In this document: one piece after another, positions 1 to 34,630 of the stretch
How positions within the stretch are numbered: position 1 is the stretch's first letter
Layout of the letters: every line of letters starts with the position of its first letter
DNA from: a virus
DNA: 34,630 nucleotides
Virus record (IMG/VR): IMGVR_UViG_3300047557_001760
Span: 1 to 34,630 of that record
Strand: one strand, 5' to 3'
Made by a program: the position numbers and the translations under genes
Notes under the pieces: model-generated
The model's database searches: none
Told to the model about the DNA's origin: nothing
Seen by the model: the letters and a program-made list of their open reading frames with translations, nothing else

Positions 1-1317
1 GCTAATGGGCTGACCTGGACAGACTGGCTCATGACTGCAGCCGAGGAGATACTCGTCATAGATGCATGGGCTGTATATCCACAGCCATCAGTCGGTGGCG
101 ACCTCTATGGCTTTCAGATACTAGACGGCTCGACTATCAAGCCACTCATAGATGACAGAGGCATGAGGCCGATGCCACCTAACGCTGCATATCAACAAAT
201 CCTCTACGGCTTTCCACGCTCAGAGTTTTCAGCTAACGATGATGATCCGAAGGCAGACGGCGAGTTCACCGCAGACGATCTCGCATACATGGTGCGCAAT
301 CGCCGGTCTATCTCGGTCTATGGCTTCTCTCCTGTAGAGCGAGCCCTACCGCTAGCTGATATCTACCTGCGCAGACAGCAATGGCTACGAGCTGAGTACA
401 CCGATGGTGTCCTTCCAGAGCTCATGTTCACTACTGACGAGGACTGGGGCAACAACCCTGACCTCCTACGCGCCTACGAGAACATCCTCAATGACGATCT
501 AGCCGGTCAAACAGAGCAGCGAAAGCGAGCGCGCCTACTACCTAAGGGTCTATCCCCTGTGGTCAATGAGGGCTATGGCGAGAAGTTCAAAGACACACTA
601 GATGACTACCTCATCACCTCAATCTGCGGTCACTTCGGTGTTCAGCCAGCCGAGATTGGCTTCGCCCCTAAGGGCGGTCTAGGTGGGGCAGGTTTTGAGG
701 AGGGCAGAGCTGAGACAGCCGAGGCTCTTGGCATTCAGCCTCTCGCTAACTGGATCAGCAAGATGGTCACGAATCTCAGCTACACATATCTCGGTATGCC
801 ACGCGAACTAGAGTTTCGCCTGATGACATCAAAGCGGATGGATAACGAGTCGAGTGCTCGCAAAGCACAGATCGAGGTCACATCTGCAGGTAAGACCATC
901 AACGAGCGCAGATCAGAGCTAGGACTACCCCTACTCGATACACCTCAGGCCGATATGCCTATGCTCGTGACCGGCGCAGACATCTTCCTGTTCTCACCTG
1001 ATGGCATCATCAACGCCAAAGAGGTCGTTTCAGCTCCGACACTAGAGGGCGAGAACGCGACACCGACTGCACCTACCACCCCTGATACGAGTGATGAGAC
1101 ACCGGAGCAGGAGGCAGTACCTGACAATGATGATGAGATATCTGATGAGACTGTCTCAGAGGTCAAAGCGTTCATGAAGTGGGCATCTAAAGGCAGGAGA
1201 GCCCGTCTATTCGAGTTCAAAGCCCTAGACCCTATCGTGGCTGATGCCCTCAACAAGTGCGCAGTAGAAGGAGACTTCGATACGGCTAGAGCCCTAGCCA
1301 AAGCGTACCTAGCATGA
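1..1317 (+). CDS. Portal protein, 5' end cut by the window
   Basis: The reading frame is open to the first base, so the gene starts upstream and the ATG at 31 is probably internal. The portal forms the dodecameric ring at the capsid vertex through which DNA is packaged and which holds the neck. The visible part has typical siphophage portal features: a D-A-x-A-V-Y-P segment, a 'DGSTIKPLIDD' stretch, 'AYQQILYGFP', and a later helical part containing 'ITSICGHFGVQPAEIGF'. The C-terminal 90 residues are acidic and Thr/Pro-rich, as in many portals. The stop overlaps the next start (ATGA at 1314-1317), so translation is coupled to the MuF-like gene. Portal then minor head protein then protease is the classic order. 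Confidence 0.9.
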   Translation, partial: ANGLTWTDWLMTAAEEILVIDAWAVYPQPSVGGDLYGFQILDGSTIKPLIDDRGMRPMPPNAAYQQILYGFPRSEFSANDDDPKADGEFTADDLAYMVRNRRSISVYGFSPVERALPLADIYLRRQQWLRAEYTDGVLPELMFTTDEDWGNNPDLLRAYENILNDDLAGQTEQRKRARLLPKGLSPVVNEGYGEKFKDTLDDYLITSICGHFGVQPAEIGFAPKGGLGGAGFEEGRAETAEALGIQPLANWISKMVTNLSYTYLGMPRELEFRLMTSKRMDNESSARKAQIEVTSAGKTINERRSELGLPLLDTPQADMPMLVTGADIFLFSPDGIINAKEVVSAPTLEGENATPTAPTTPDTSDETPEQEAVPDNDDEISDETVSEVKAFMKWASKGRRARLFEFKALDPIVADALNKCAVEGDFDTARALAKAYLA

Positions 1318-2240
1318 CATGGCAGAAGGCTATGGAGGCCGATGCTCGGCTAGTCGCTAGAAACGCGGTCAAGATACGCGCTGCTCTGAAACAGAGCATC
1401 AACAGCAAGACCATGTTTGAGGCATACCTAGCTACACAGCCACAGTCCACTGGCAACATCGCTCAGGATCGAGCTCGCGCTCGCGCATGGGCAATCATCA
1501 ATGTCAGAGTCAATATGGAGGCTCTCAAGACTGTGCTGCTCAGAGTCTGGGCTACTGGATATCTACTAGGTGATCTCGCTGCTCAGGAGCTCATCGCAGA
1601 GGCAGAGCGTAGAGAGTCAAAGAGCGCAGATATCACTAAGGCGGATATTGAGGTCGCTATCGACTGGGCATCCTGGGAGCCAGGAGATCAGATATCGGCA
1701 CTCATACTCAAGCCCACACGAGCATTCCGCAGACTACTAGAGGCACAGGGCATCACACTCAAAGAGCTGACGAACACAGAGCTACGAGATATCGGCAACG
1801 CTATCGGTGAGGCTATATCACTCGGTCTATCACCTAAACAGGCAGCGAAACTCATCAGCCAGACAGTCGCGAGCCCTATGCGCGCCCTCATGATTGCTAT
1901 CACCGAGTCAAACAGAGCAGTATCGGCGGCGACAGTCGCTCGATATCAGGATGCAGGTCTAGCTGAGATGGAGTGGACTACCTTTGATCCATGTCCTATC
2001 TGCGCACAGAATGATGGACAGACTGTAGGTATCGGCGCACCTTTCCCATCGGGTCATACACAGCCACCTGCACATCCCAACTGCAGATGCGCACTACTAC
2101 CGGTCATCCCTGACTTTGATGCACCTAACTACACAGGTGGATCAGTCATACAGATGTCATCCACACCATCACCGAAGCCCGAACCTGTTATCGTTAGACA
2201 TATCAATCCCTATGCATCACAGATCGAACGGGTGGACTAA
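1314..2240 (+). CDS. MuF-like minor head (head morphogenesis) protein
   Basis: This 308-residue protein is largely helical. It ends in the diagnostic C-terminal motif of the phage Mu gpF / SPP1 gp7 family: 'CPICAQNDGQ', then 'PFPSGHTQPPAHPNCRCALLP', with Cys and His residues that probably bind a metal (about residues 225-265). Family members bind the portal, enter the capsid in a few copies and help head assembly or DNA ejection. It starts in a 4-nt overlap with the portal, and its TAA shares its last base with the following ATG (TAATG). No toxin or ADP-ribosyltransferase domain is visible after the MuF motif; the last 40 residues are proline-rich. Confidence 0.85.
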   Translation: MTWQKAMEADARLVARNAVKIRAALKQSINSKTMFEAYLATQPQSTGNIAQDRARARAWAIINVRVNMEALKTVLLRVWATGYLLGDLAAQELIAEAERRESKSADITKADIEVAIDWASWEPGDQISALILKPTRAFRRLLEAQGITLKELTNTELRDIGNAIGEAISLGLSPKQAAKLISQTVASPMRALMIAITESNRAVSAATVARYQDAGLAEMEWTTFDPCPICAQNDGQTVGIGAPFPSGHTQPPAHPNCRCALLPVIPDFDAPNYTGGSVIQMSSTPSPKPEPVIVRHINPYASQIERVD

Positions 2241-4288
2241 TGGCTGATGGTTTCGTTCCTCCACAGGCGGTACGCAATAACGCCAAGCGTGGTCTAGAGC
2301 TCAGAGAAAAACATGGGCGCGGAGGTACGGCTGTAGGTGTAGCACGAGCCAGAGATTTATCAAACGGCGCATCTATCAGCTACGACACCATCAAGCGTAT
2401 GAACAGCTACTTCGCTCGTCATGAGGTAGATAAGAAGGGCGAGGGTTGGGGAAAAGACTCGGCAGGATACATCGCATGGCTACTATGGGGTGGCGATGCA
2501 GGATGGTCATGGGCTAGAGGCATCATCAGATCACAAGAAAGCAAGGAGAAGTCCACTATGAGCAATCTGACTACCTCGTACTTTGGTATCGAGAAGGCGG
2601 ATAGAAACTCTGACGGCACTCTGACTGTCTATGGCAAGGCAACAGATGACTCAGTAGATATAGACCAACAGATATGCGATGGCGACTGGCTAGATCGAGC
2701 CATGCCAGCATGGTTCAAGTCCGGTGGAAACATCCGAGAGCAGCACAGCAACATCGCTGCAGGTGTAGCCAAAGAGTATGAGCTCAAGCGCGATGGACAC
2801 TACATCACAGCCCTAGTAGTCGATCCTGTATCGGTCAAAAAGGTAGAGACAGGTGTGCTCAAAGGCTTCTCCATCGGTATCAAAAACCCACGCGTGACAC
2901 GAGACAAAGTGGCTGCGAATGGGCGCATCGTAGATGGTCAGATTGTCGAGGTGTCTCTGGTGGATAGACCTGCCAATCCGAACTGCCAGCTAGTCCTAGC
3001 GAAGTCTGCGATGGGCGAGGACTCTATGATCCAGGTCGAGGAGCTCATTGAGAAGGCTGATGAAAAGCCTGACTATGAGAGCATCAACGAGGGTGGAGAG
3101 GGCTCAGAACCTGCGGATATGGAGCTCTATAACCGAGTCAAGCGCGAGGCTAAGGAGAAGTTTGATGTATATCCATCGGCTGTCGCGAATGCCTGGGTGG
3201 TACGCGAGTACAAGAAGCGTGGGGGCAAGTACAAACGCAAAACGAAAAAGACCGCGAATACTTTAGACTTATCGCACACATCTGAGGAGGATGCCATGAC
3301 AGCACTAGCTAACGAAATCGTTGAGCTATCCAAAGCGTATCGAGGTACAGACCTCCTCAAGTTTGACCAGAAAACATACGACTCTGCTCGACAGGCGTTA
3401 GCACAGCTCATCGCTATCGAGGCAGAGGAACTAGGCGAGGGACATGACGAACAGATGTCTATCGCTCATCTACTACAGGCAGTACACCACCTCTTTGCAT
3501 GGTTCGAAGGGGAGAAAGCAGAGGGAGAAGTGGAAGAAGTACTAGAGGATATCGAACTCGCAGCGAAGAAAGATGATGCTGAGGAGACAAAAGCAGAGCA
3601 CGATGATGAGGACATGAAGAAGTTCGCCCCTAAGAAGGATGAGTCCAAAGAGTCATTCATGAAGCGATGCAAAGAGGCTGGCATGAAAGATGATGCCATC
3701 AAGAGTATGTGCGACAAGTACTACAAGGCAGATGCTGATGCAGAGAAGTCTGCAGAGGTTACAAAGTGCCTAGAGTGCGGATGCGGTCAGCCAGGATCAG
3801 ATCATGGACTCACCCAAACAAACGATTTTGCAAATGTAGCGAAGCCATCTCATGTGACAACAGCAGAGATGTACACACCTGACCAGACACCTAAGAGTGC
3901 AGAGCCAGATGATGCTGAGACAAAAGAAGAAGATGAAGTTTCTACAGATGAGCCTAAGTCTGTAGATGTAGAAGCCATCGTTGAACAAGCGATAAAGAGC
4001 GCAACACAGTCCATCAGAACGGAGATCGAGGCACTCATGTCTGCAAAAGAGGCAGCAGAGGGTCGTGCGATGAGTTTGGAAACTGAGTTAGCTACGGCTA
4101 AATCTCTCGCGGCAGCAGGAGGCCCAAAGCGCACAGCGAAACCTGTGGCTGAAACCTCTAGCGACCTTCTAGTGAAGGCTGCTATGTATAACGCGAAAGC
4201 AAAGGCAACAACTGACCCAACACTTGCAAAGGGATATCGCGTTCTAGCTGAGAAGTTTGCAGCAGAGCATGACACCCTGAACAAGTAA
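2240..4288 (+). CDS. Capsid maturation protease fused to scaffold-like domains
   Basis: This 682-residue multidomain protein appears to combine protease and scaffold. Residues 1-106 form a conserved phage module ('GGTAVGVARARDLSN', 'SYFARHEVDKKG', 'IAWLLWGGDAG'). Residues 107-255 resemble an XkdF/HK97-type serine prohead protease with candidate His169 in 'REQHS', Ser211 in 'GVLKGFSIGI' and an acidic partner near Glu237 before 'VSLVDRPANP'. About 294-332 is a DUF5872-like motif ('AVANAWVVREYKKRGG'). Residues 353-680 are acidic and helical, with a Cys cluster near 510-523 ('CLECGCGQPG') and a C-terminal coiled coil typical of scaffolds. No separate scaffold gene precedes the capsid gene. Internal in-frame ATGs with good ribosome sites occur at 2558 (AAGGAG) and 3296 (GAGGAGG). 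Confidence 0.8.
   Translation: MADGFVPPQAVRNNAKRGLELREKHGRGGTAVGVARARDLSNGASISYDTIKRMNSYFARHEVDKKGEGWGKDSAGYIAWLLWGGDAGWSWARGIIRSQESKEKSTMSNLTTSYFGIEKADRNSDGTLTVYGKATDDSVDIDQQICDGDWLDRAMPAWFKSGGNIREQHSNIAAGVAKEYELKRDGHYITALVVDPVSVKKVETGVLKGFSIGIKNPRVTRDKVAANGRIVDGQIVEVSLVDRPANPNCQLVLAKSAMGEDSMIQVEELIEKADEKPDYESINEGGEGSEPADMELYNRVKREAKEKFDVYPSAVANAWVVREYKKRGGKYKRKTKKTANTLDLSHTSEEDAMTALANEIVELSKAYRGTDLLKFDQKTYDSARQALAQLIAIEAEELGEGHDEQMSIAHLLQAVHHLFAWFEGEKAEGEVEEVLEDIELAAKKDDAEETKAEHDDEDMKKFAPKKDESKESFMKRCKEAGMKDDAIKSMCDKYYKADADAEKSAEVTKCLECGCGQPGSDHGLTQTNDFANVAKPSHVTTAEMYTPDQTPKSAEPDDAETKEEDEVSTDEPKSVDVEAIVEQAIKSATQSIRTEIEALMSAKEAAEGRAMSLETELATAKSLAAAGGPKRTAKPVAETSSDLLVKAAMYNAKAKATTDPTLAKGYRVLAEKFAAEHDTLNK
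3296..4288 (+). other. Possible nested scaffold protein from an internal start
   Basis: An in-frame ATG at 3296 follows GAGGAGG (3284-3290) with a 5-nt spacer, a better ribosome site than the one in front of the full-length gene. It would yield a 330-residue acidic, coiled-coil protein lacking the protease. This is the arrangement of lambda C/Nu3, where the scaffold is made from inside the protease gene. The GAGGAG also encodes Glu-Glu, so the match could be chance. Inference only. Confidence 0.3.
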
Positions 4289-4314
4289 AACCCAAACAAC
4301 GAAAGGAACACGCA

Positions 4315-5979
4315 ATGGCTGAAATGCCTCGCGCTACTGATCTCTTCGGTGATGTATCACCGGTAGAGGCTGCGCAACGCCACGATGAGTACCTCGGTGC
4401 TCTCAACAAGTCATTGGGTAATGCCTCATCTGTCCCAGGACAAGCACCTGTTGATGCCACAGCGACTCTAGAGTCACTCGTAGCAAACAAGTCCCTTGCT
4501 CCTGATGCAGTAGCTGGACTACAGAATGCACTCGCCGCACAACGCATGGCGATGCAGGATATCCAGAAGGACATCACCCTTACATCTCCATTGAGCACAT
4601 CTTTCGCAGCCTTCGATCTCGAAGCACCTGCAAAACTGCTCACACCACGCCCAACCCCACTACGCAACCGCATCCCTCGTAAGAAGGGTGTCGGTACATC
4701 TCACCGTGTCAAGAGAATCCTCGGATACACAGGTACAGGTACAGGCGGAGTCGGAAACCTATGGCCTGGTATCACAGAAACTTCAACCGCTACTTTTGGT
4801 TCTATCAACTACGAGCGCGGCCCAGTTATCTCCTATGCTGCTGACGACCTAGTGTTGCCATACAACAGCTACTCACTATCCGACAGCGTTTCGTTCGATG
4901 CTAACTTCTCAGGTCTTGGATATCAAGATCTTCGTCAGCTCTCATCTACATCTACGCTATATGCAACGATGTTGATGGAAGAACGCATGATGCTCATGGC
5001 TCGTGGTACTGCATCTGGCTACTCAGGCGCACTATCAGCACCTACATTCACACTCGCATCACCTGTTGCATCAGGATCACAAACAGCTCTCGCAGCGACT
5101 ACTTACTATGTAAATGTCACCGCAGATGCTGGTATTTCAGGCAACGGCTTTGGCGAGTCAATCCTCGGTACTGAGGCAAACACCGCAGTCGCATCTGGCG
5201 ATGTTCTTACTGTCACAGTAAGCACCGCAGTCGCAGGTGCTCTTGGCTACAACATCTATGTTGGTACAGCTACAGGCGCAGCGAACCTCAAGTATCAGGG
5301 AACACTTCGTGGAACAGGCACATTTACCATCCAGGGTGCAAGTGCATCAGGTTTGACCGGCAACAACGCAGCGTTCAGCACATCAGGCGCAGCAGCATCT
5401 CGCGCATCTGCAGACACTTCTGCATACGCAACAGGTTATGACGGCATCCTTCCAACTGTTCTCGGCCCAAATACAGGCTTCAACAACAGCATCAACAGCA
5501 CCTTCTCCACCTCTAATCCAGGTGCAGAGTTCCAGACTGTGTTCGCACAGCTCTATCAGAATGTGAAGGCTGATCCTGACATGGTGCTTCTCAACGGAAA
5601 TGACCGTAAGCAACTCTCTGATGCAATCAAGAGTGGCTCTACAGCTAACTATCGTTTGACTATCCAGGAGCCAGGTAAGGATGGAATCACCTATGGTTCT
5701 ATCGTCACCGGTATCCAGAACGAAGTCACCGGTAAGGCTGTCGATCTCATGGTTCATCCTTGGCTCAATCAGGGTGTAGCCCCTGTCCTCTCATTCACAC
5801 TTCCTATCCCAGATACCGAAGTGTCAGATGTATGGGCAAACTTCATGGTTCAGGACTACATGGGCATCCAATGGCCTGTGACTCAGTTCAGCTATGACTT
5901 CTCAACCTACTTCCGAGGTACTTTCTTCTGCACAGCTCCAGCATGGAACGGCGCAGTATCAGGTATCGTCTCTGCGTAG
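4315..5979 (+). CDS. Major capsid protein (HK97 fold) with inserted beta domain
   Basis: At 554 residues this is the shell subunit, identified from position and architecture: it follows the protease/scaffold gene, has an N-terminal helical arm rich in Ala/Leu (1-95), a central fold, and a C-terminal part with 'DPDMVLLNGNDRKQLSDAI' and a conserved ending. Residues about 243-346 are a Thr/Ala/Gly-rich segment of short beta strands ('TTYYVNVTADAG', 'LGYNIYVGTATG') resembling a fibronectin/Ig-like insertion, likely exposed on the capsid. The start follows AAAGGA. Codon choice differs from neighbours: CTA and AGA are scarce and CTC, CGC and CGT dominate, as expected for the most highly expressed gene. 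A hairpin follows the stop. Confidence 0.88.
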   Translation: MAEMPRATDLFGDVSPVEAAQRHDEYLGALNKSLGNASSVPGQAPVDATATLESLVANKSLAPDAVAGLQNALAAQRMAMQDIQKDITLTSPLSTSFAAFDLEAPAKLLTPRPTPLRNRIPRKKGVGTSHRVKRILGYTGTGTGGVGNLWPGITETSTATFGSINYERGPVISYAADDLVLPYNSYSLSDSVSFDANFSGLGYQDLRQLSSTSTLYATMLMEERMMLMARGTASGYSGALSAPTFTLASPVASGSQTALAATTYYVNVTADAGISGNGFGESILGTEANTAVASGDVLTVTVSTAVAGALGYNIYVGTATGAANLKYQGTLRGTGTFTIQGASASGLTGNNAAFSTSGAAASRASADTSAYATGYDGILPTVLGPNTGFNNSINSTFSTSNPGAEFQTVFAQLYQNVKADPDMVLLNGNDRKQLSDAIKSGSTANYRLTIQEPGKDGITYGSIVTGIQNEVTGKAVDLMVHPWLNQGVAPVLSFTLPIPDTEVSDVWANFMVQDYMGIQWPVTQFSYDFSTYFRGTFFCTAPAWNGAVSGIVSA

Positions 5980-22229: not shown

Positions 22230-23081
22230 ATGACACAGATGACTGCAGTATCCCTGTTCGCAGGTATCGGAGGCTTTGATCTAGCTCTAGAGCGTAATGG
22301 GGTCAAGGTCGTAGCATCGGTAGAAATAGACAAACACGCGCAGGGTGTACTGCGCAAACAGTTCCCAAACAGTCAGATACTAGGTGATATCCAGGAGGTA
22401 TCAGGTGAGCAACTCATTAGCGCAGGATTTACTCCGCAACACGGAGTCATCGTTGGAGGCTTTCCATGCCAAGACTTGTCTGTGGCAGGGAAACGAGCAG
22501 GGCTCGCAGGAGCTCGGTCTGGACTTTTCTGGGAAATCTGCAGACTCCTTGATGAAACGAAAGCGCGGTATTTCATCCTTGAAAATGTCCCTGGTTTGCT
22601 CACATCAAGTGGAGGAAGGGATATGGGAGTCGTCATCGGGGCGTTGGCTGAAAGGGGGTATAGCATCGCGTGGCGTGTGCTTGATGCTCAATACTTCGGA
22701 GTCCCCCAAAGACGGCGCAGAGTGTTCATTGTCGGATGTCTTGGAGACGACTGGAGAACACCTGCAGAAGTACTCGATCTCGCCGAAGGCAGCGCAGGGG
22801 ATACTCCGCCGAGCAGGGCGAAGGGGCAAGACTCTGCCGGAACAACTGAACAGAGCGTTGGAACAGGTGGCAGGGCTGGAAACTTCGAGCTCTACGATTT
22901 CCCAGATGGAGAAGTGAGCCCATCTCTCAACGCATCGCGAGCGCATGACACGATGACATGGTGGGATGGATCAACAACGGCACAGTCTCTGACTACCACC
23001 TCGAATGAACAACGGATGCCTGATAAGGGCAGGATGCAGATGGTGTTGATAGATGAACCTGTTGTGGGCAGTCAAGACTAG
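22230..23081 (+). CDS. C5 cytosine DNA methyltransferase, N-terminal part
   Basis: The first 283 residues hold the catalytic half: motif I 'SLFAGIGGFDLALERNG', motif II near 'ASVEIDK', motif IV 'GGFPCQDLSVAGK' with catalytic Cys80, motif VI 'ENVPGLL' and motif VIII 'QRRRRVFIVG'. The frame stops at 23079-23081 inside the region before motif IX, which continues in the +1 frame from 23053. A strong ribosome site (GGAGGAGG) precedes it. The enzyme would transfer a methyl group from SAM to cytosine, protecting phage DNA from restriction. Either a 1-nt insertion broke one gene, or the two pieces assemble as a split enzyme, as known for AquI. Confidence 0.85.
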   Translation: MTQMTAVSLFAGIGGFDLALERNGVKVVASVEIDKHAQGVLRKQFPNSQILGDIQEVSGEQLISAGFTPQHGVIVGGFPCQDLSVAGKRAGLAGARSGLFWEICRLLDETKARYFILENVPGLLTSSGGRDMGVVIGALAERGYSIAWRVLDAQYFGVPQRRRRVFIVGCLGDDWRTPAEVLDLAEGSAGDTPPSRAKGQDSAGTTEQSVGTGGRAGNFELYDFPDGEVSPSLNASRAHDTMTWWDGSTTAQSLTTTSNEQRMPDKGRMQMVLIDEPVVGSQD

Positions 23082-23832
23082 ACGAGCTCAGACTGTTGAG
23101 GATAACGAGTCATGGGCGATGGGGGGGGTAGTACCGACCTTGAATGTATTTGATAACGCACACGAGACACGAGCTACTGTCATCGTTTTCTATGGGAATC
23201 GCGTAGATGACATACGCATCCAGGATGACAAAATCAACACGCTACAGGCGCGTATGGGAACAGGTGGGAACAATATGCCGATGGTCTATCAGGAGGGCGA
23301 GGATGAGACAGTCGCCTACTCGATACGAGAGGATGCTCAGGCCGATACTTTCTCAGCTACACCTACAGATACTGCCTTAGCACTACAGGCGCATCAGCCA
23401 TCAGTACAGAGCCATCATGCGCAGTTATTCGTAGCTCAGACATTCGATACCTATAACCAAACGACTAGCGATATCGCACAGACTCTGAGATCAGGAACAG
23501 ACATGGACAAGATGGGAGTGGTGCATATGGATCAACCTATGGTGATGCAGGATCGAGAGGGCAAGCCTGGGGGCGGTAAGGGGCCGTTGGTATCCGACAC
23601 ATCGTTCTCGCTGCGCACTTCTAACTTTCAGACCCTGTTCACATCTACTGTCAGGCGACTGACTCCTACAGAGTGTGAGCGACTACAGGGCTTCCCTGAT
23701 GGATGGACTGAGGGACAGGCAGATAGCCATCGCTACAAACAGCTCGGCAACGCTGTGGCTGTACCGGTGGTGGATTTTCTCATCAGTAGATTGGTAGCCT
23801 CAGCTACATCTATGGAGTCATCTACCGAGTAG
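23053..23832 (+). CDS. C5 cytosine DNA methyltransferase, C-terminal part
   Basis: In the frame shifted +1 from the catalytic half, this part carries the target-recognition region with repeated 'VPTLN', 'SFSLRT' type strands, then motif IX 'VRRLTPTECERLQGFPDGWT' and motif X 'YKQLGNAVAVPVVDF'. The frame opens just after a TAG at 23050, so ATG 23053 is the first possible start, but no Shine-Dalgarno precedes it. It overlaps the N-terminal frame by 29 nt. Joining the frames near GTTGTGGGCAG (one G fewer) gives 'DEPVVAVKTRRAQTV', a natural methyltransferase sequence. Function as a separate peptide is uncertain. Confidence 0.75.
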   Translation: MNLLWAVKTRRAQTVEDNESWAMGGVVPTLNVFDNAHETRATVIVFYGNRVDDIRIQDDKINTLQARMGTGGNNMPMVYQEGEDETVAYSIREDAQADTFSATPTDTALALQAHQPSVQSHHAQLFVAQTFDTYNQTTSDIAQTLRSGTDMDKMGVVHMDQPMVMQDREGKPGGGKGPLVSDTSFSLRTSNFQTLFTSTVRRLTPTECERLQGFPDGWTEGQADSHRYKQLGNAVAVPVVDFLISRLVASATSMESSTE

Positions 23833-26399: not shown

Positions 26400-27060
26400 C
26401 CTACAAGATGTCATAGTGAAATCACTACAGGGCTACGATGCTCAGAGAGATCGAAGTCTGCAGGTGGATATCGGGCCGAGCAGTCTAGGTGGCTGTCGTA
26501 GGCGTGTATGGCACGAGCTCAAACAGGATGAGAAAAGAAATCCGACAGAATCACTCGGAGCTATCCTGGGGACTTTTATCCACTCAGGCATGGAGAAGGT
26601 CATGACTAGACTCGATCCGTTTGGTGATAACTACCTCATTGAGCTAGAGATATCTCACGAGGGTCTGCGCGGTCATTGCGACCTGTTCATCAAAGACCTC
26701 GGACTCGTAGTGGACTTCAAGACCACCACGAAGTCAGGTCTGCGATATCTAAATGACCGGCAGAAGATGTGGCAGATACATACCTATGGGTATCTCCTGT
26801 CTAAGAACGGCTACGATGTCAAAGAGGTATCGCTCGTGGGCATACCTCGCGATGGCAAGATGGCTGATATCCGAGTCGTACAAGAGCCATATAGCGAGCT
26901 GACTGCACTAGAGGCTATCGCCTGGCTAGATGAGATCAAAGACATCGTGAGTAGCGATGCTGAACCTCCTGCCCCTGAGAAGTTCGTGAGTTTCTGTAAG
27001 GACTACTGCCCCTACTTTGACTCATCGGGGGTGCATGGATGCCCAAGTATGGCGAAGTAG
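26392..27060 (+). CDS. PD-(D/E)XK nuclease, Cas4/RecB-like
   Basis: This 222-residue protein has an active site pattern of His64, an acidic pair near Glu84/Glu86, Asp97 in 'RGHCDLFI' and the D-x-K core Asp108-Phe-Lys110 in 'VVDFKTT', then 'QIHTYGYLL' (motif QxxxY-like). Cys35 ('GGCRRRVW') and C-terminal Cys202, Cys206 and Cys217 could hold a 4Fe-4S cluster as in Cas4-type exonucleases. No CRISPR array or other Cas gene is present, so it is a phage recombination exonuclease that would make single strands for the annealing-like protein upstream. It overlaps the WhiB gene by 22 nt. Confidence 0.82.
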   Translation: MIDLQDVIVKSLQGYDAQRDRSLQVDIGPSSLGGCRRRVWHELKQDEKRNPTESLGAILGTFIHSGMEKVMTRLDPFGDNYLIELEISHEGLRGHCDLFIKDLGLVVDFKTTTKSGLRYLNDRQKMWQIHTYGYLLSKNGYDVKEVSLVGIPRDGKMADIRVVQEPYSELTALEAIAWLDEIKDIVSSDAEPPAPEKFVSFCKDYCPYFDSSGVHGCPSMAK

Positions 27061-27368
27061 ATTGGGATCAGGCAGAGTGCAAGGGCAGTATCTACACAGA
27101 CCTGTTCTACACAGTCGAGGAACAACGCTCGATCCTGCAGTATGAGTACATCAACGCGCTGCGCTCGGTCTGCGCTCGCTGTCCCCTATGGGCTACCTGT
27201 CTGACATATGCGATGGAGCATGAGGACTATGGCGTGTGGGGTGGCATGACGAGCGTAGAGCGTGTATCAATGCGTGACCCCAAGCGATACCCCAATCAAA
27301 GGGCGAGGGCGGTGGAGGAACTAGCTCTATATGGCATCACATATGAGCAGATATTGGAGTGTATGTGA
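27039..27368 (+). CDS. WhiB-family iron-sulfur transcription regulator
   Basis: In this 109-residue protein four cysteines in the WhiB spacing (Cys14, then Cys45-x2-Cys48-x5-Cys54, 'CARCPLWATC') bind a 4Fe-4S cluster. The family's 'GVWGGMTSVER' turn follows, with a basic C-terminal region ('PKRYPNQRARAVEEL') that contacts DNA. WhiB proteins occur only in Actinobacteria and their phages; they bind the housekeeping sigma factor and redirect transcription, and phage versions can block host WhiB2 and superinfection. It overlaps the nuclease gene at its start and the initiator at its end (GTGA). Confidence 0.9.
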   Translation: MPKYGEVDWDQAECKGSIYTDLFYTVEEQRSILQYEYINALRSVCARCPLWATCLTYAMEHEDYGVWGGMTSVERVSMRDPKRYPNQRARAVEELALYGITYEQILECM

Positions 27369-28833: not shown

Positions 28834-28851
28834 ACCTAAATGGAGGCAGAT

Positions 28852-29448
28852 ATGAAGTACCAACTCAAAAACATCAAGACCCTCAACACACATGAGGGCA
28901 TGGCATGGACAGCAACTGTGTACAAGGATGGCAAGCGCATCGGTACTGCAGAGGATCGAGGCGATGGTGGTAGCACATGGCTCTATGTATCCAACTATGC
29001 AGAGGAGCTAGAACTCACAGCATGGTGCGCTGAGGCATCAAAGAACTCAGGTCTATGGATGGCTGAGTATGCAAACAAGTATGGAACTGTGCATCATGTA
29101 GGTGGAGAAAAAGATGGCGAGCAGACATGGGAGATGTCGTTCAGCACAGAGATGGCACTTGCATATCTACTAGAGGTCGCTGACCTAGACAAAAAGGCAA
29201 AGAAGAACATCATCTTCCGCGTACCAACAGGTATCACCGAGTTCATCGGGCAGGAGTACGACACATACACACTCACAGGTCAGAGCATGGCTACAGCCAC
29301 ACCATCATCAGTAGCACACGCACTTGTGTACATCACAAAGAAGTATGCGACAGCACAGGTATGGGACTTCCGCGACCACGCATGGATAGATGCATCGGCG
29401 ATGCTCGACACGATGCGCGACTACATCCCTGCACAGGTAGGTGCATAG
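28852..29448 (+). CDS. Unknown protein behind a structured leader
   Basis: This is a 198-residue protein. ATG 28852 is chosen because GGAGG lies 7 nt upstream; an ATG at 28840 overlaps the ribosome site. The start 'MKYQLKNIKTLNTHEGMAWT' followed by 'ATVYKDGKRIGTAEDRGDGG' is a beta-sheet opening shared by a broad class of uncharacterised phage proteins. Later segments are mixed alpha/beta ('SSVAHALVYITKKYATAQVW'). No enzymatic motif is visible. Its own leader and hairpin suggest strong expression, perhaps early takeover of the host. Function unknown. Confidence 0.65.
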   Translation: MKYQLKNIKTLNTHEGMAWTATVYKDGKRIGTAEDRGDGGSTWLYVSNYAEELELTAWCAEASKNSGLWMAEYANKYGTVHHVGGEKDGEQTWEMSFSTEMALAYLLEVADLDKKAKKNIIFRVPTGITEFIGQEYDTYTLTGQSMATATPSSVAHALVYITKKYATAQVWDFRDHAWIDASAMLDTMRDYIPAQVGA

Positions 29449-29450
29449 TC

Positions 29451-30019: not shown

Positions 30020-30189
30020 GTGTTGAGGCAAAAGAGCCCACCTGCGCATGGTGTGGCACATCCGGTGGGTTCGCAAACAGACTCATAATCGGACTAGATA
30101 CACGCGGAGAGCTACTCGCAGAGTGCGAGTGGTGCGCATCAACTGAGTATTTTAGGAGGAAGGCTGCAAATGGAAAACAAGACAACTAG
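30016..30189 (+). CDS. 57-residue double-CxxC zinc-finger protein (3 of 4)
   Basis: This gene runs from ATG 30016 (ATGA overlap) to TAG 30187. 'PTCAWCGTSGG' and 'ECEWCASTEYF' place two CxxC pairs 27 residues apart around a short beta hairpin, a classic treble-clef or zinc-ribbon layout, with a basic C-terminus ('RRKAANGKQD'). It overlaps the start of the membrane-protein gene by 20 nt, and its AGGAGG for that gene lies inside it. Function unknown. Confidence 0.6.
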   Translation: MSVEAKEPTCAWCGTSGGFANRLIIGLDTRGELLAECEWCASTEYFRRKAANGKQDN

Positions 30190-30361
30190 GCTGACACGCA
30201 GGGGGTGGATAGTCCTCGTGATTATCCCTGCGATACTGATAGGACTGCTCTTCTCATATGTCACACGAGATGTGTGTTATGTAGGCACAGAGCATGGCAA
30301 CGCGTTCGGATATGGCTCATGCATGGAGCAGATAGATCGAGTTATCGAGGAGGGCAGATGA
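30170..30361 (+). CDS. Small single-pass membrane protein
   Basis: This 63-residue protein has a ribosome site AGGAGGAAGG. A basic N-terminus ('KTTRLTRRGW') precedes one transmembrane helix ('IVLVIIPAILIGLLFSYV', residues 14-31), then an outside segment with two Cys ('DVCYVGTEHGNAFGYGSC') that could form a disulfide. Positive-inside charge predicts the C-terminus outside. It could alter the host membrane or exclude other phages, but is not near the lysis genes. Confidence 0.62.
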   Translation: MENKTTRLTRRGWIVLVIIPAILIGLLFSYVTRDVCYVGTEHGNAFGYGSCMEQIDRVIEEGR

Positions 30362-30594
30362 AGTACGAGTTTCTAGTGCAGGTGATTGAGGATGGCTCTG
30401 TATCTTTCAGTCAGACCTACACATCGGCTGTAGAGGCAGTCAGAGCCTATGACCTGTTCAGAGACTATGGGACTTGCAAGCATTGGCGCGAGATAGTCCT
30501 CGTAGAGCCAAACGGAAAAGGTCACGGCAAAATGTTCGAAGCACCTGAGCTACGCCCATCCGATAAACTAGGGCGAGTCCAAATACCAACCTGA
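30358..30594 (+). CDS. Small alpha/beta protein, unknown function
   Basis: This is a 78-residue protein. ATG 30358 (ATGA overlap, GAGGAGGG upstream) is preferred over in-frame starts inside the preceding gene. It has a strand-helix-strand pattern ('KYEFLVQVIEDGSVSF', 'SAVEAVRAYDLFRDYG', 'WREIVLVEPNGKGHG') resembling small phage proteins of unknown role. No catalytic motif seen. Confidence 0.6.
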   Translation: MKYEFLVQVIEDGSVSFSQTYTSAVEAVRAYDLFRDYGTCKHWREIVLVEPNGKGHGKMFEAPELRPSDKLGRVQIPT

Positions 30595-30606
30595 GAGGGG
30601 CAAGAG

Positions 30607-30699
30607 ATGGACAAGATGATAACTAGATGTACCTGTGGCACATGGAAATATGGTGATGCCACCTGCCAAGTCTGTAAGGCATTGGAGGCTAGGGGCTAG
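30607..30699 (+). CDS. 30-residue cysteine-rich micro-protein (4 of 4)
   Basis: ATG 30607 to TAG 30697, preceded by GAGGGG. The product has 'TRCTCGTWKYGDATCQVCK', a CxC and a CxxC separated by nine residues, a minimal zinc ribbon. It is very short, but the cysteine pattern and coupling to its neighbours support it. Function unknown. Confidence 0.5.
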   Translation: MDKMITRCTCGTWKYGDATCQVCKALEARG

Positions 30700-30701
30700 C
30701 C

Positions 30702-31142
30702 ATACAGCCTCTCAAACGAGCACTTGTAGTAGCCCTGTTAGGGGTTGGGCTCGTTATCCCTGCGCACTCACACGCTCCTGTGATGACCCCTGTTCAAAAT
30801 AAACAGTTTGTGATCTCACAGATGTCTGCCAAAGACTATGCGGCGCACCTGATACGCATGGAGTACAAACAGCCCAAGCGTGAGTTCAAGTGCCTAGCGA
30901 CCCTCTGGGGCAAAGAGTCTGCCTGGAATCACAAGGCAAAGTCGCCTACACATGACTATGGCATCCCTCAAAGGCACATGAGCCACAACACAAAGGCGCA
31001 GATAGCTGACTTCATGAGCCATCCGCATACTCAGATCGAGTGGGGGCTCGGCTATATCAGCCACAGATACGAGACTCCTTGCAAAGCGTTACACTCCTGG
31101 CTATCTAGAGCAGACAAAAACGGCAGAGGAGGCTGGTACTGA
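30702..31142 (+). CDS. Secreted lytic transglycosylase-like protein, start codon unclear
   Basis: The catalytic domain ('CLATLWGKESAWN' with the likely catalytic Glu, 'HDYGIPQRHMS', 'QIEWGLGYISHRYETPCKA') matches the small secreted transglycosylases of Actinobacteria, which cleave glycan strands of peptidoglycan. In frame upstream is a good signal peptide: 'PLKRALVVALLGVGLVIP' then 'AHSHA'. Yet between the in-frame TAG at 30690 and the signal there is no ATG, GTG or TTG; ATA 30702, with AGGGG 6 nt before it, is the best candidate. If translation began at GTG 30780 or ATG 30783 the signal would be lost and no ribosome site exists. A sequence error is possible. Confidence 0.65.
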   Translation: MQPLKRALVVALLGVGLVIPAHSHAPVMTPVQNKQFVISQMSAKDYAAHLIRMEYKQPKREFKCLATLWGKESAWNHKAKSPTHDYGIPQRHMSHNTKAQIADFMSHPHTQIEWGLGYISHRYETPCKALHSWLSRADKNGRGGWY

Positions 31143-31228
31143 TGAGCACAATCATCCCAATCCATATCGAGCGACCTATCCCACATCTAGATGATGACGA
31201 TATCTATGAGGATGATGACGAGGACTAG
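31142..31228 (+). CDS. 28-residue acidic micro-protein, tentative
   Basis: ATG 31142 uses the last base of the preceding stop (TGATG) and the frame ends at TAG 31226. The C-terminal half is nearly all Asp and Glu ('LDDDDIYEDDDED'). Such acidic peptides can mimic DNA, but the shortness makes the call tentative. It fills the gap before the HNH gene. Confidence 0.4.
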   Translation: MSTIIPIHIERPIPHLDDDDIYEDDDED

Positions 31229-31234
31229 GACTAG

Positions 31235-31567
31235 GTGGACAAGAAAATCGTAGCGATGGTAGAGGAGAGGGCAGGTGGGTACTGTGAAGTCTGTGGACTA
31301 CCGGCACACCCATCTATGGCTCTGCATCACAGAAAACTCCGTTCTAGGGGTGGCAAAGACACAGCTAGCAATCTCATCCGAGTGCATCACGGCTGTCACA
31401 ATCTCAAAACAGGGAGCATCCACCACAACCCAGACTATGCGAGTCAAAAGGGCTGGATGGTCGGATCGTGGCAAGAGCCATCCCAAGTCCCATTCTCTCG
31501 ACCAGATGGGTCAGTCGTACTGTTACAAGATGATGGTAGAGTCAGCGTTCTCATGGAAGGTGAGTGA
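31235..31567 (+). CDS. HNH endonuclease
   Basis: This 110-residue protein has a GTG start with no clear ribosome site. 'GGYCEVCG' (Cys17, Cys20), 'ALHHRKLRSRGGKDTASNLI' (His31, His32) and 'VHHGCHNLK' (His51, His52, Cys54) form a full HNH fold with a zinc clamp, followed by 'GSIHHNP'. It may be a homing-type nicking enzyme or one that helps packaging, as HNH proteins beside terminase do in HK97; here the terminase region is 3 kb away. The C-terminal 45 residues are beta-rich. Confidence 0.85.
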   Translation: MDKKIVAMVEERAGGYCEVCGLPAHPSMALHHRKLRSRGGKDTASNLIRVHHGCHNLKTGSIHHNPDYASQKGWMVGSWQEPSQVPFSRPDGSVVLLQDDGRVSVLMEGE

Positions 31568-31570
31568 TAT

Positions 31571-31948
31571 ATGGAAATCAAAGTCAAGGGCAGAGTCGGT
31601 AGTGACCCTGAGATCAAGTTCGTCACGCAGGAGCAGTTACCTCTTGCCACATTCAGCCTCGCATACACACCGCGCAACAGAAAAGGTGGCGAGTGGGTAG
31701 ATGGCGAGACGATGTGGTTCAAGGTAGCTATCTTCGGCAAAAAGGCTGAGGCTATCGCTGACAGCATCAAAAAGGGTGACGAGGTACTTGTGCTCGGTAG
31801 TGTCAAACAGGCGACATTTCAGGGCCGAGATGGATCAGAAAAGACCGCGCTAGAGATTACAGCGAGCGAGGTTGCGCTAGTACCTAGATTACAAAAGGGA
31901 GCACCGCGTACTCAGGCACAGACACAGGCGTATGAGCCAGGATGGTAG
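31571..31948 (+). CDS. ssb: Single-stranded DNA-binding protein
   Basis: In this 125-residue protein, 'EIKVKGRVGSDPEIKF', 'PLATFSLAYTPRNRKGGEWV', 'GETMWFKVAIFGKKAEAIAD' and 'KGDEVLVLGSVKQATFQGRD' form the OB fold of bacterial-type SSB, shorter than the usual 160-180 residues. The C-terminus ends 'TQAYEPGW' and lacks the acidic DDDIPF tip that normally recruits partner proteins, so host-protein contacts may differ. It coats ssDNA during replication and recombination. The next gene starts inside its last codons. Confidence 0.85.
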   Translation: MEIKVKGRVGSDPEIKFVTQEQLPLATFSLAYTPRNRKGGEWVDGETMWFKVAIFGKKAEAIADSIKKGDEVLVLGSVKQATFQGRDGSEKTALEITASEVALVPRLQKGAPRTQAQTQAYEPGW

Positions 31949-32133
31949 ATGAATCTCTGATGACCTCAGTAGAGGTCGCCGAGCTATTAGGTATCACACT
32001 CAACAATCTGAGACAGATACAGCATCGGAAACAACTGACATATGTGTCCAAACTAGGTCGCAAGGTGTACTACAGACGAGAGGATGTGGCGCGCTTCCAG
32101 GCTATCCGACAGGAGAAACATGGCAGACCTTGA
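31942..32133 (+). CDS. MerR/excisionase-like HTH protein
   Basis: In this 63-residue protein, 'MTSVEVAELLGITLNNLRQI' and 'SKLGRKVYYRREDVARFQA' are the helix-turn-helix and wing of the HTH_17 family, used by excisionases and small regulators. An internal ATG at 31960 would give the canonical start. No integrase is seen, so a transcription or replication role is more likely than excision. It overlaps the SSB gene by 7 nt and the next gene by 14 nt. Confidence 0.72.
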   Translation: MVDESLMTSVEVAELLGITLNNLRQIQHRKQLTYVSKLGRKVYYRREDVARFQAIRQEKHGRP

Positions 32134-32299
32134 GACATTACAGACCATGCTTAGAGCCCTACAGCATCAGACTCGAAATCAGATCATCAGAGAGATCGAG
32201 GCATTTGCAGGGGACTACCATCATCATATGGATGGGCGAGATGTGGTCATAGTGGAGCAACTACTAGACTTCCTGAGGGAGATACCGCGTGATAAGTGA
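32120..32299 (+). CDS. Small helical protein, unknown function
   Basis: This is a 59-residue protein. ATG 32120 has AGGAG 4 nt upstream; the in-frame extension to 32084 lies within the preceding gene. Product: 'LETLQTMLRALQHQTRNQII', then 'REIEAFAGDYHHHMDGRDVV' and 'VEQLLDFLREIP', all-helical with a His-rich loop. No family recognised. Confidence 0.55.
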   Translation: MADLETLQTMLRALQHQTRNQIIREIEAFAGDYHHHMDGRDVVIVEQLLDFLREIPRDK

Positions 32300-32447
32300 C
32301 GATCCACAGATAGCAGTCATACTACAGACAGTCGCTGACCGGATACGCGCTCGCGGATACGAGTCCCTAGCCTTCAAAATCGAGAACCTGCTAGACCTCC
32401 ATCGTGAGGAGCTAGAGGAGGAGCTCAAGCGCAAACCGCGTAAGTAG
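32289..32447 (+). CDS. Small helical protein of 52 residues
   Basis: GTG 32289 overlaps the preceding gene by 11 nt, with GAGGGAG about 9 nt upstream; the frame ends at TAG 32445. 'DDPQIAVILQTVADRIRARG' and 'SLAFKIENLLDLHREELEEE' are two charged helices with a basic end ('KRKPRK'). Codons (CTA, CGC) match the genome. No function assigned. Confidence 0.5.
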   Translation: MISDDPQIAVILQTVADRIRARGYESLAFKIENLLDLHREELEEELKRKPRK

Positions 32448-32450
32448 TTC

Positions 32451-32456
32451 TATCAT
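32451..32456 (+). promoter_or_regulatory. -10 element TATCAT, probable leaderless promoter
   Basis: TATCAT lies 6 nt before the ATG at 32463 with no Shine-Dalgarno in between, in a context (GTAAGTAGTTC-TATCAT-CCTCAC-ATGA) similar to that of the holin gene at 19654 (GTAACTGT-TATCAT-CTGACAC-ATGA). No -35 is evident. It may start the ParB/Mom/terminase operon. Confidence 0.45.
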
Positions 32457-32462
32457 CCTCAC

Positions 32463-32663
32463 ATGAGCGTAGTCATCACAGAGGACATCTCGGTAGCCGA
32501 TATAGACGAGGCTATCCGCCATACCTATGCCATGCTCAAAACAGATGAGTTCGGCAACAGGATGAACTGGCGCAAGAAAGAGATGCTGCAGAGCTCTATA
32601 GATGATCTCCTAGATGCTCGACTCAATCTAGTGCAGAGGGGCAACGCTTTCCCTGATGAGTAA
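32463..32663 (+). CDS. Small protein, leaderless start, unknown function
   Basis: This is a 66-residue protein. 'SVADIDEAIRHTYAMLKTDE' and 'NWRKKEMLQSSIDDLLDARL' are two helices of a compact all-alpha fold, with 'TDEFGNRMNW' between them. No ribosome site is visible; the ATG lies 6 nt after a TATCAT element, pointing to leaderless translation. It overlaps the following 45-residue gene by 8 nt (ATGAGTAA). Confidence 0.62.
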   Translation: MSVVITEDISVADIDEAIRHTYAMLKTDEFGNRMNWRKKEMLQSSIDDLLDARLNLVQRGNAFPDE

Positions 32664-32793
32664 AGAGATACGCATATTCAAACGCACCTACATCATCATT
32701 GGCGTTGCGCGTGGTTTTGGTTTAGGCTTCCACATAGATAGATATTCCATCGGCATAGATATCGGCCCGTTCTATATCTGGCTGCAATACTGA
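32656..32793 (+). CDS. Small protein of 45 residues with hydrophobic C-terminus
   Basis: ATG 32656 overlaps the stop of the preceding gene and the frame ends at TGA 32791, just before the GAGGAGG of the ParB-like gene. The sequence 'KEIRIFKRTYIIIGVARGFG' and 'IDRYSIGIDIGPFYIWLQY' forms beta hairpins; similar tiny proteins ending in 'xxxLGPFxxxL' are common in phages. T-richer codon use than its neighbours (TTT, TTC, ATA). Function unknown. Confidence 0.6.
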   Translation: MSKEIRIFKRTYIIIGVARGFGLGFHIDRYSIGIDIGPFYIWLQY

Positions 32794-32803
32794 GGAGGCA
32801 CTC

Positions 32804-33418
32804 ATGGATACGATGACCGTACCCATCAGCTCGCTCACACTCGATCCTGCAAACGCTCGCAAACACTCAGAGGTCAATCTCAGGGCTATCGCGAACAGTC
32901 TGCGGAGATTTGGTCAGCGCAAGCCGATAGTCGTACAGGGCTCTACAGTCCTAGCAGGTAATGGGACACTAGAGGCTGCGAAAAGTATCGGATGGTCGGA
33001 GATAGTCATCGTGCGAGTACCGGATGAGTGGGACAGCGAGACAGCCAAAGCGTATGCGCTCGCCGATAATCGCTCGGCAGAGCTAGCAGAGTGGGATGAG
33101 GTAGTCCTAGCCGCACAGCTCATGGAGCTACAGGATCAGGGATGGGATATCGCAGACATTGGCTTCGAGGCATCAGTAGCAGAGGTACGATCCCTAGAGG
33201 ATGCCTTCGCAGATGTGCCTAGTGGCGAGCGCGATGATGCTACCCAGATGACCTTCACTATGACCCTCGTACAGGCAGAGCTCATCAGCCATGCCATCAA
33301 ACAGTCCAAACAGGCTCATGATTTCACAGACTCAGACAACAAAAACAGCAACGGCAACGCACTATGGGCTATATGTCAGGAGTGGCTAGATGCCATCAGC
33401 CAAAGAGCTCAGGGTTGA
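32804..33418 (+). CDS. ParB-like nuclease-domain protein
   Basis: This 204-residue protein has a strong ribosome site GAGGAGG. 'PISSLTLDPANARKHSEVNL', 'IANSLRRFGQRKPIVVQGST', 'VLAGNGTLEAAKSIGW' and 'KAYALADNRSAELAEW' are the ParB N-terminal domain as found in phages (GNG replaces the usual GxxR motif). These proteins bind or nick DNA, and are often paired with DNA-modifying enzymes or terminase genes. The C-terminal 70 residues ('TFTMTLVQAELISHAIKQSK') form a helical domain. The Mom-like gene starts inside its last 29 nt, so the two are coupled. Confidence 0.82.
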   Translation: MDTMTVPISSLTLDPANARKHSEVNLRAIANSLRRFGQRKPIVVQGSTVLAGNGTLEAAKSIGWSEIVIVRVPDEWDSETAKAYALADNRSAELAEWDEVVLAAQLMELQDQGWDIADIGFEASVAEVRSLEDAFADVPSGERDDATQMTFTMTLVQAELISHAIKQSKQAHDFTDSDNKNSNGNALWAICQEWLDAISQRAQG

Positions 33419-34187
33419 GCCGATAGCCTCTAGCGATGCTATGGCATTCGTGCGGAAGCATCACTACTCAGGCAAAGTCGATCCTCGATCTCAGCTACAT
33501 CTAGGCGTGTTCCTCAAAGGGCGACTAGAGGGCTGTATGCAGTTCGGCCCATCTATAGACAAAAACAAGACCATCGGCCTCGTCAAAGACACACCCTGGA
33601 ACGGCTTCATGGAGCTGAACAGACTCGCATTCTCTGATCTGCTGCCTAAGAACAGCGAGAGCAGAGCCCTATCTATAGCCATGCGCCTGATACGCAAACA
33701 CGCTCCTCATGTGGAGTGGATACTGAGCTATGCAGATGGGACTCAATGTGGCGATGGCACGATCTACCGAGCCTCAGGCTTCAAGCTGATAGGCATCAAA
33801 CAGAACAACTCTATGTGGCGTATGCCTGATGGAGAAGTCGTAGCCAAGATAGTCTTAGAGCCAGGGTTTAGCCCTAACGCAGGGAAGGGCAGTATCAAGG
33901 CTCGATATGGCAAGACCGGCACAGAGACATCCACCTCGTTCCTCAAGAGGATAGGCGCGGAGTGTTTGCCTGGCTTTCAGCTCAGATACTTGTATTCTCT
34001 ACACCCTACAGTTTTGGACAGGCTCACAGTACCTGTCCTCCCTTTTTCTGCGATAGACGAGTATGGGGCTCGTATGTATCGCGGAATACGCCCTGGAAGC
34101 ATTGACAGCGATGCATCTGGCTTCCTGCCAGACCAAGACGGTGCAACTCCGATCTCAGGGCTCGATACCATAGTGAGCGAGGTGTAA
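33390..34187 (+). CDS. Mom-like GNAT DNA-modification enzyme
   Basis: In this 265-residue protein the N-terminal 140 residues are a GNAT fold of the phage Mom type: 'RKHHYSGKV' (His24, His25, Tyr26), 'LGVFLKGRLEGCMQFGPS', 'MELNRLAFSDLLPKNSESRA', 'VEWILSYADGTQCGDGTIYR' and 'ASGFKLIG'. Mu Mom converts adenine in DNA to a methylcarbamoyl form and makes it resistant to many restriction enzymes. The C-terminal half (150-265) has 'CLPGFQLRYLYSLHPTVLDR', often seen in this family. AGGAG lies 7 nt before ATG. The ParB-like gene upstream and terminase downstream fit modification before packaging. GNAT enzymes with other substrates look similar, so biochemical activity is inferred. Confidence 0.7.
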   Translation: MPSAKELRVEPIASSDAMAFVRKHHYSGKVDPRSQLHLGVFLKGRLEGCMQFGPSIDKNKTIGLVKDTPWNGFMELNRLAFSDLLPKNSESRALSIAMRLIRKHAPHVEWILSYADGTQCGDGTIYRASGFKLIGIKQNNSMWRMPDGEVVAKIVLEPGFSPNAGKGSIKARYGKTGTETSTSFLKRIGAECLPGFQLRYLYSLHPTVLDRLTVPVLPFSAIDEYGARMYRGIRPGSIDSDASGFLPDQDGATPISGLDTIVSEV

Positions 34188-34194
34188 TCCCACC

Positions 34195-34630
34195 ATGCCC
34201 ACTCACAATGCAGTCCCAGAGCCAGAACAGCTAGACCGAGAGCTCAAAGTCCTCGAACTACGCAGGGCAGGGCTGACATGGCAGCGTATAGCCGAGCAGG
34301 TCGGATATGCAGACCACTCAGGCGCATACCTAGCCTACAAACGCGCTCTCAAGCGTGTGCTGAAACAGCCAGCCGAGGAGCTACGACAGGCTGAGATAGA
34401 TCGACTAGACCGGCTACAACTAGCGGCGTGGCCGAAGGCTATGCAGGGGGACAACTCAGCTATAGCGACAGTTCTGAGGATCATGGAGCGTAGAGCGAAA
34501 CTCCTGGGACTCGATATGCCGGTCAAAATCGCTCAGGATGTGACCGTATGGGATGGAGGCGAGAGCATTGACAGAGCAGTACGCGACCTTGCCGAGCTAC
34601 TCAGACAAAACTCTGCAGATAGCTCAGTCG
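34195..34630 (+). CDS. Terminase small subunit-like protein, 3' end cut by the window
   Basis: ATG 34195 to the window end, 145 codons without stop. 'LELRRAGLTWQRIAEQVGYA' is a helix-turn-helix, followed by 'SGAYLAYKRALKRVLKQPAE', 'LDRLQLAAWPKAMQGD' and 'RIMERRAKLLGLD', the hallmark of actinophage small-terminase-like proteins. It would recognise the packaging site and hand DNA to the large terminase, expected just beyond the window and followed by the portal gene whose 3' part opens this window. Spacing of 8 nt from the Mom-like gene suggests one operon. Confidence 0.82.
   Translation, partial: MPTHNAVPEPEQLDRELKVLELRRAGLTWQRIAEQVGYADHSGAYLAYKRALKRVLKQPAEELRQAEIDRLDRLQLAAWPKAMQGDNSAIATVLRIMERRAKLLGLDMPVKIAQDVTVWDGGESIDRAVRDLAELLRQNSADSSV

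Follow-up and report, generated by a model that had tools for sequence, protein, structure and literature searches.

Palindromic words missing from a phage genome and its relatives are probably erased Type II restriction sites

The window analysed here is the whole of the IMG/VR virus record IMGVR_UViG_3300047557_001760, a linear virus contig of 34.6 kb that contains no TTAA and no ACGT and lacks many restriction-type palindromes of five to six bases along its entire length (1..34630). We consider it probable that these words were erased because they are cut by Type II restriction enzymes, which vary among the actinobacterial hosts. The window encodes portal, head, tape-measure and tail genes, together with an exonuclease, a replication initiator, a CHAP-domain protein and RusA, and it is probably short of a few kb of its genome because its nearest full-length relatives measure about 38.9 kb. 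The closest of these (G003) has a single TTAA and no ACGT in 38,876 bases. The capsid, methyltransferase, WhiB, ParB-like, Mom and fam82 genes described below all lie on the plus strand. The probable major capsid protein (4315..5979, 554 residues) belongs to PHROG 13692, where no function is assigned, and one of its distant tblastn matches is annotated as a major head protein; this protein served to find and place the relatives. A megablast search with bases 1-25,000 as query found nothing similar among 50,697 phage records, and tblastn of the capsid protein against the same records gave distant matches in 5 of them (23-33% identity).

Several other genes of the window are relevant to DNA modification or to the host. 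A C5 cytosine methyltransferase is split over two overlapping genes in different frames, with an N-terminal part of 283 residues (22230..23081; PF00145, E 1.6e-56) and a C-terminal part of 259 residues (23053..23832; PF00145, E 3.8e-14), the latter also matching the C-terminus of the HhaI methylase (E about 2e-5). This layout of positions 22230-23832 is repeated in G003, G004, G006, G017 and G020 and, therefore, is not a sequencing error. A WhiB-type regulator, a marker of actinobacterial hosts, is found at 27039..27368 (PF02467, E 2.9e-13). Near the end of the window, a ParB-like protein (32804..33418; PHROG 620, E 6.1e-33) marks the edge of what we call the modification slot, which is occupied by a protein of the Mom DNA modification family (33390..34187) that matches both PF25680 (E 2.7e-49) and the solved Mom structure 8bv8 (E 8.8e-27). 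The preliminary description, made from the letters alone, had proposed a cytosine methyltransferase and a Mom-like enzyme, and both are indeed present. An open-ended open reading frame (ORF) at the window end (34195-34629) matches a PHROG labelled RNase E (E 3.5e-35). Pfam or PHROG scans covering 31 of the 56 ORFs of this probably incomplete window revealed no integrase, and the phage may be non-integrating.

A program count on both strands of the 34,630 bases confirmed the total absence of TTAA and ACGT that had first been noticed by eye, and among the 256 tetranucleotides only these two, both of them palindromes, have a count of zero. Base composition predicts 114 TTAA and 132 ACGT, and a first-order Markov model 42.7 and 92.5 (with minima of 26 and 65 in 200 simulations). 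The maximal-order Markov expectation is 52.6 for ACGT and only 9.0 for TTAA, because TTA and TAA are themselves rare in the window. This last figure could favour the idea that the absences are a simple by-product of base composition, codon usage or amino-acid content, but such an explanation is virtually untenable. In fact, when synonymous codons were shuffled within the 44 predicted genes (10,298 codons, 89% of the window), a procedure that keeps both proteins and codon usage, 36.4 TTAA (standard deviation 5.0) and 68.0 ACGT (standard deviation 6.3) were expected, and none of the 200 shuffles lost either word, the minima being 23 and 49. This refutes composition as the cause in the window; the absences are independent of its codon usage. 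Furthermore, there are close relatives with near-identical capsid proteins in which the same words are present in some and absent in others.

TTAA and ACGT are only a small part of the words missing from the window. Other palindromes had been described as occurring freely, and GATC, GTAC, AGCT, CGCG, GCGC and CATG do occur at 112-175 copies, close to composition, but GATC is restricted in its context: its 144 copies hardly ever lie within the longer palindromes YGATCR (0 of 35.8 expected) or RGATCY (1 of 33.5). AATT (5 of 114 expected from composition), GGCC (31 of 154) and CCGG (47 of 154), which had not been named before, are also depleted. Comparison of degenerate palindromes, 4-7 bases long, with a third-order Markov expectation revealed, among others, CASTG at 1 of 60, GGNNCC at 4 of 87, and zero copies of RGCGCY (40 expected), GGWCC (38), GGYRCC (37), RCATGY (32), GTYRAC (24), CYCGRG (21) and CGRYCG (21). 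CTCGAG (16 expected) and CAGCTG (15) are at zero as well. This tendency is strongly biased towards palindromes, as 8 of the 26 palindromic hexamers with an expectation of at least 8 are absent, versus 27 of the 1,716 non-palindromic ones. According to a list of Type II specificities whose overlapping entries inflate the counts, 25 of the 62 testable specificities fall below 6% of expectation (GGWCC, RGCGCY, GTYRAC and CYCGRG among them). Two non-palindromic words are well above their codon-shuffle expectation in the window, CATC (326 vs 179) and GATG (311 vs 201).

A search of IMG/VR with the capsid protein retrieved at least 598 related stretches, from samples that are probably of fresh water to judge by their sample numbers, and the analysis was continued with 80 of these stretches. 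The near-complete set consists of the window and 13 relatives (34.6-41.3 kb, one of them cut at 40 kb), and parts of other relatives were also read. The missing words differ among these phages, and ACGT, AGCT, CCGG, TCGA, GATC and ATAT are among those absent in the relatives. In this near-complete set of 14, the four-base palindromes are below 6% of expectation in 40 of 224 cases (1 to 6 per genome), versus only 1 of 1,680 non-palindromic tetramer pairs. That single case is CCTC/GAGG in G005 (L108, L109), which is the site of the Type IIS enzyme MnlI. In terms of restriction specificities, each near-complete genome lacks from 9 to 30, with a median of 20, on the same partly overlapping list.

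A comparison with related phages had been suggested by the preliminary description, and it uncovered an extensive turnover, with 29 different sets of missing words in the 53 phages that have a usable capsid gene. On a capsid tree built with FastTree, the minimum number of changes was 14 for TCGA, 13 for CCGG, 7 each for AGCT, ATAT and GATC, 4 each for ACGT and GGCC, and 3 each for GTAC, TGCA and TTAA, counts that are rough because 20 of the 50 inner branches are well supported. The turnover is visible even between close relatives: L251 and L071 have capsid proteins that are 95.5% identical, and the former lacks CCGG and the latter TCGA, while L011, whose capsid protein is 94% identical to that of the window, carries 34 AATT and 4 TTAA in 14.3 kb. 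Longer sites behave in the same way. RGCGCY is two-peaked, with 0 of 38-41 expected in the window, G003 and G004 versus 42-82 copies, at least twice the expectation, in 10 of the 11 others, the exception being G015 with 12 of 14 expected; and CCWGG is found 0-3 times in G005, G006, G008, G011 and G014 versus 142 times (70 expected) in G009.

How the sites were lost was studied in aligned genes, at positions where non-avoiders carry the word, as the share of comparisons (not independent of one another) in which the avoider has identical amino acids. In the capsid gene, the amino acids were retained at 74% for ACGT (background 74%), 85% for CCGG, 79% for GATC, 78% for TCGA and 80% for ATAT (backgrounds 73-74%). 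These figures argue that the capsid protein was in most cases not altered by the loss of a site, AGCT being the exception. In the terminase gene, the values and their backgrounds were 62/58% for ACGT, 57/56% for CCGG, 57/51% for GATC, 54/55% for TCGA and 57/56% for ATAT. Amino acids are thus largely preserved at removed sites, at rates similar to the background for most words. A mutational process that erodes words in the absence of selection, such as methylation followed by deamination or a word-specific repair, could be considered here, as genes for cytosine or adenine methyltransferases are present in this phage family and one of the missing words contains CpG. However, TTAA, AATT and ATAT contain no cytosine, the lost words differ among close relatives, and a loss down to the last site would hardly be expected from a mutation rate alone, so that we regard this process as extremely unlikely to be the cause.

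Another possibility is self-exclusion: each phage would encode a sequence-specific nuclease for the breakdown of host DNA and would be devoid of the words cut by its own enzyme. Some gene-word associations in the 14 genomes would be compatible with it, although they are weak, with two avoiders each: fam61, fam78 and fam79 are found in both genomes lacking ATAT and in 0 of the 12 others, and fam82 has the same distribution with respect to TTAA (2/2 vs 0/12). The fam82 protein of the window (28840..29448, 202 residues), a weak candidate for such a nuclease, had no match in a Pfam search and matches weakly a PHROG of unknown function. However, none of the 83 variable gene clusters tracks AGCT (7 avoiders), CCGG (5), GATC (3) or TCGA (4), and the only one that tracks ACGT (11 avoiders) is fam26, present in 11/11 avoiders and 0/3 of the others, which resembles a small tail protein and therefore points to host range, an association that may also be explained by descent. 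As fam26 and fam68 tail genes are not separable by tblastn in the larger set, the tail association refers to the 14 genomes. Moreover, self-exclusion would require 9-30 enzymes in each genome of 35-41 kb, and we consider it very unlikely.

The modification slot is exchangeable among the relatives. In G003, G004 and G006, Mom is located beside a ParB-like gene and the terminase, and in the window it lies next to its ParB-like gene. In the case of G005, G007, G011, G014, G024 and G029, the slot contains members of the set formed by Tet_JBP, amino acid:DNA transferase, P-loop kinase, FAD and PLP-type genes, related to thymine hypermodification (in G005 these are grouped at L108 4304-7818), and in other relatives it has neither Mom nor thymine-type genes. 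The slot region of G015 (L128 3110-4240) encodes a protein of 376 residues in which an ABC-type ATPase region is joined to one resembling an acetyltransferase. Slots were typed in 54 phages, the remaining 50 of 104 sequences (39 of them devoid of ACGT) being impossible to type. The mean number of missing four-base words was 4.39 in phages with neither cassette (n=31, a class that includes some phages with a Dam-like or ATPase-GNAT gene), 2.83 in those with thymine genes (n=18) and 1.8 in those with Mom (n=5). ACGT is absent in 31/31, 4/18 and 3/5 of these classes, respectively, and GGCC, which contains no T, follows the opposite trend, as it is missing in 3/31 phages with neither cassette versus 7/18 with thymine genes. 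The lower number of missing words in cassette carriers fits masking in place of erasure, and Mom, the cytosine methyltransferase and the thymine-hypermodification genes of the relatives may partly replace erasure by masking the sites. However, the capsid tree requires only 4 changes of the cassette, and among the 26 rows listed a single independent pair is well supported; the cassette effect is therefore inseparable from descent. The earlier suggestion that the missing words are those that the phage cannot modify agrees with the trend in the slot, but this trend is not independent of descent. The target of the Mom protein of phage Mu is SASNY, and a by-eye check of whether Mom specificity determines the remaining words found no relation, as GAGCTC (30 copies) and CAGCTG (0) both fit this motif.

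A scan of species genomes, carried out in one run, located two relatives, both in Actinomycetota genomes. One is a contig in the metagenome-assembled genome (MAG) 'Actinomycetota bacterium WB6_1B_195' (90%) and has 0 ACGT of 73 expected; the other is in Actinacidiphila acididurans (50%) and has 69 ACGT of 58 expected. WhiB is in use as an actinophage marker (PMC10202952). The WhiB gene and the two species genomes holding relatives support an actinobacterial host for the window phage, as judged from gene content and matches. A cyanobacterial host, initially thought of on account of restriction-rich bloom genera (PMC8262939), was dropped because the only two relatives in species genomes are both in Actinomycetota and the WhiB gene is present. 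We took as candidate host order, to which the host would belong, that of the MAG holding the relative G001 (162 genomes). C5 methyltransferases are present in 36/162 of these genomes and N6/N4 methyltransferases in 23/162. Of the methyltransferase loci, a selection of 44 was examined, 9 of them uninformative (7 without a methyltransferase-like motif and 2 without a neighbour in range). Among the matches listed for 71 methyltransferase neighbours (25 of 68 Pfam families and 25 of 44 PADLOC families), there were 6 SacI, 3 MvaI/BcnI (L327, L331 and L332) and 1 each of the HpaII, NgoMIV and HaeII families, the last (L294 1766-2797, E 5e-60) adjoining a C5 methyltransferase in G166, and another neighbour carries an NgoFVII C-terminal domain. 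The usual sites of these families are GAGCTC (SacI), CCWGG/CCSGG (MvaI/BcnI), CCGG (HpaII), GCCGGC (NgoMIV), RGCGCY (HaeII) and GCSGC (NgoFVII), and each of them is absent or almost absent from some members of the phage family (with only 2-11 copies expected for GAGCTC and GCCGGC), RGCGCY being absent from the window itself. The candidate order thus contains methyltransferase-linked Type II endonuclease genes of families matching some of the missing words.

The site avoidance could also reflect host solitary methyltransferases or regulators that bind or methylate these words, with selection acting against misregulation and not against cutting. Lake bins of Chloroflexi are reported to be methylated at TTAA, GANTC and GCWGC, the corresponding genes being listed there with no restriction system (PMC6329791), and GCWGC is found 0-2 times in G008, G010 and G012. 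However, those bins are Chloroflexi and the window carries WhiB, and a genome-wide zero would fit a lethal cut at each site better than regulation. We therefore consider this explanation very unlikely.

Avoidance of host restriction, which had been put forward in the preliminary description, is the best supported explanation because the missing words are almost only palindromes, many of them match Type II specificities, the sets turn over among the relatives, and endonuclease families with such sites lie beside methyltransferases in the candidate order. A search of host genomes for enzymes specific for the two original words had also been suggested there, and no ACGT or TTAA enzyme was found in the candidate order. 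Several other observations weigh against restriction as well. The link between the phages and this order is one contig in a MAG; the HaeII family is found in only 1/162 and MvaI/BcnI in 2/162 of its genomes; and AGCT sites retain amino acids less than the background, both in the capsid gene (0.67 vs 0.73) and in the terminase gene (0.44 vs 0.54). HincII (0/166), NgoBV (0/162) and SinI (0/162) gave no match in the candidate-order genomes, a result that is uninformative as the control genomes were silent too. Furthermore, neither C5 nor N6/N4 methyltransferases were matched in the MAG G001, where ACGT is no scarcer than its trinucleotides predict, and seven lake Actinobacteria bins are reported to have neither methylated motifs nor methyltransferases (PMC6329791). 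The lack of methyltransferases and of ACGT shortage in the MAG, together with this result in lake bins, is the main weakness of the restriction explanation; restriction islands would often be lost from MAGs.

In the mechanism that we propose, host restriction would be the selecting force. Within its host population, a phage of Actinomycetota would be exposed to numerous Type II enzymes of the orthodox kind, whose targets are short palindromes, and selection would strip each target by point changes, mostly synonymous, down to none or nearly none. Each lineage would have its own set of missing words, with a quick turnover, because the hosts differ in their enzymes. A bolder and more tentative idea, possible although we lean against it, is that erasure and masking are interchangeable modules that switch quickly, the terminase-side slot (with Mom, a thymine cassette or nothing) masking some sites and the remainder being erased genome-wide, so that the missing words would record the enzymes of uncultured hosts, including a widespread one that cuts ACGT. 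The differing sets of the relatives look like a record of the DNA-cutting defences of their hosts. Should the missing words reflect the enzymes of the hosts, the metagenomic phage genomes, which number in the hundreds (at least 598 stretches), would constitute a catalogue of these enzymes, and the phage sequence alone could be used to assign phages to their hosts. Moreover, this family offers natural replicates for analysing when a site is erased and when it is masked.

The avoidance itself is already known, and its extent and turnover in these relatives are unusual. Elimination of Type II sites has been reported in about a tenth of viral genomes, for orthodox Type II systems only, and it is rarer in temperate phages (Rusinov et al. 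2018, PMC6286503). By the threshold given there (observed/expected <0.1 with >15 expected sites), and with our own estimators in place of those of that paper, ACGT (0 of 52.6 by maximal-order Markov), RGCGCY (0 of 40) and GGWCC (0 of 38) count as eliminated, and TTAA does so by codon shuffle (0 of 36.4) but not by maximal-order Markov (9.0 expected). Like the double-stranded DNA viruses of that study, the window and its relatives show near-complete removal of palindromic orthodox Type II sites; unlike the cases described there, a single family has many alternative erased sets with frequent switches, and the host, which in that paper is paired with the phage through its restriction system, would here be deduced. 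Our searches of open-licence papers, covered by listings and some passages, turned up no phage family reported to combine dozens of alternative erased sets with an exchangeable modification slot. Other phages, taken as yardsticks, also lack restriction-type words on our list: 18 of 80 testable specificities are missing in Anabaena phage A-4L, 7 of 80 in T7 and 6 of 46 in KHP30, with 10 in phiC31, 7 in HP1, 13 in D29 and 6 in Mu. Six of these seven (6-13) are below the median of 20 of the window family, and A-4L is close to it. The unrelated Helicobacter phage KHP30 (L278) has both ACGT and GTAC below 6% of expectation, a separate loss of ACGT. With regard to modification, the window resembles phage Mu in its predicted Mom protein and differs from it in that Mu is devoid of CTAG, its one missing four-base palindrome, of which the window has 204 copies (132 expected by composition). 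CTAG is rare in many bacteria. Finally, the slot of the relatives, with its putative Tet_JBP, amino acid:DNA transferase and P-loop kinase genes, is similar to the equipment of phages M6, ViI and phiW-14, whereas the slot of the window has no thymine-hypermodification genes, and thymine-hypermodified phage DNA has been reported to resist 48-71% of Type II enzymes in vitro (PMC6449724).

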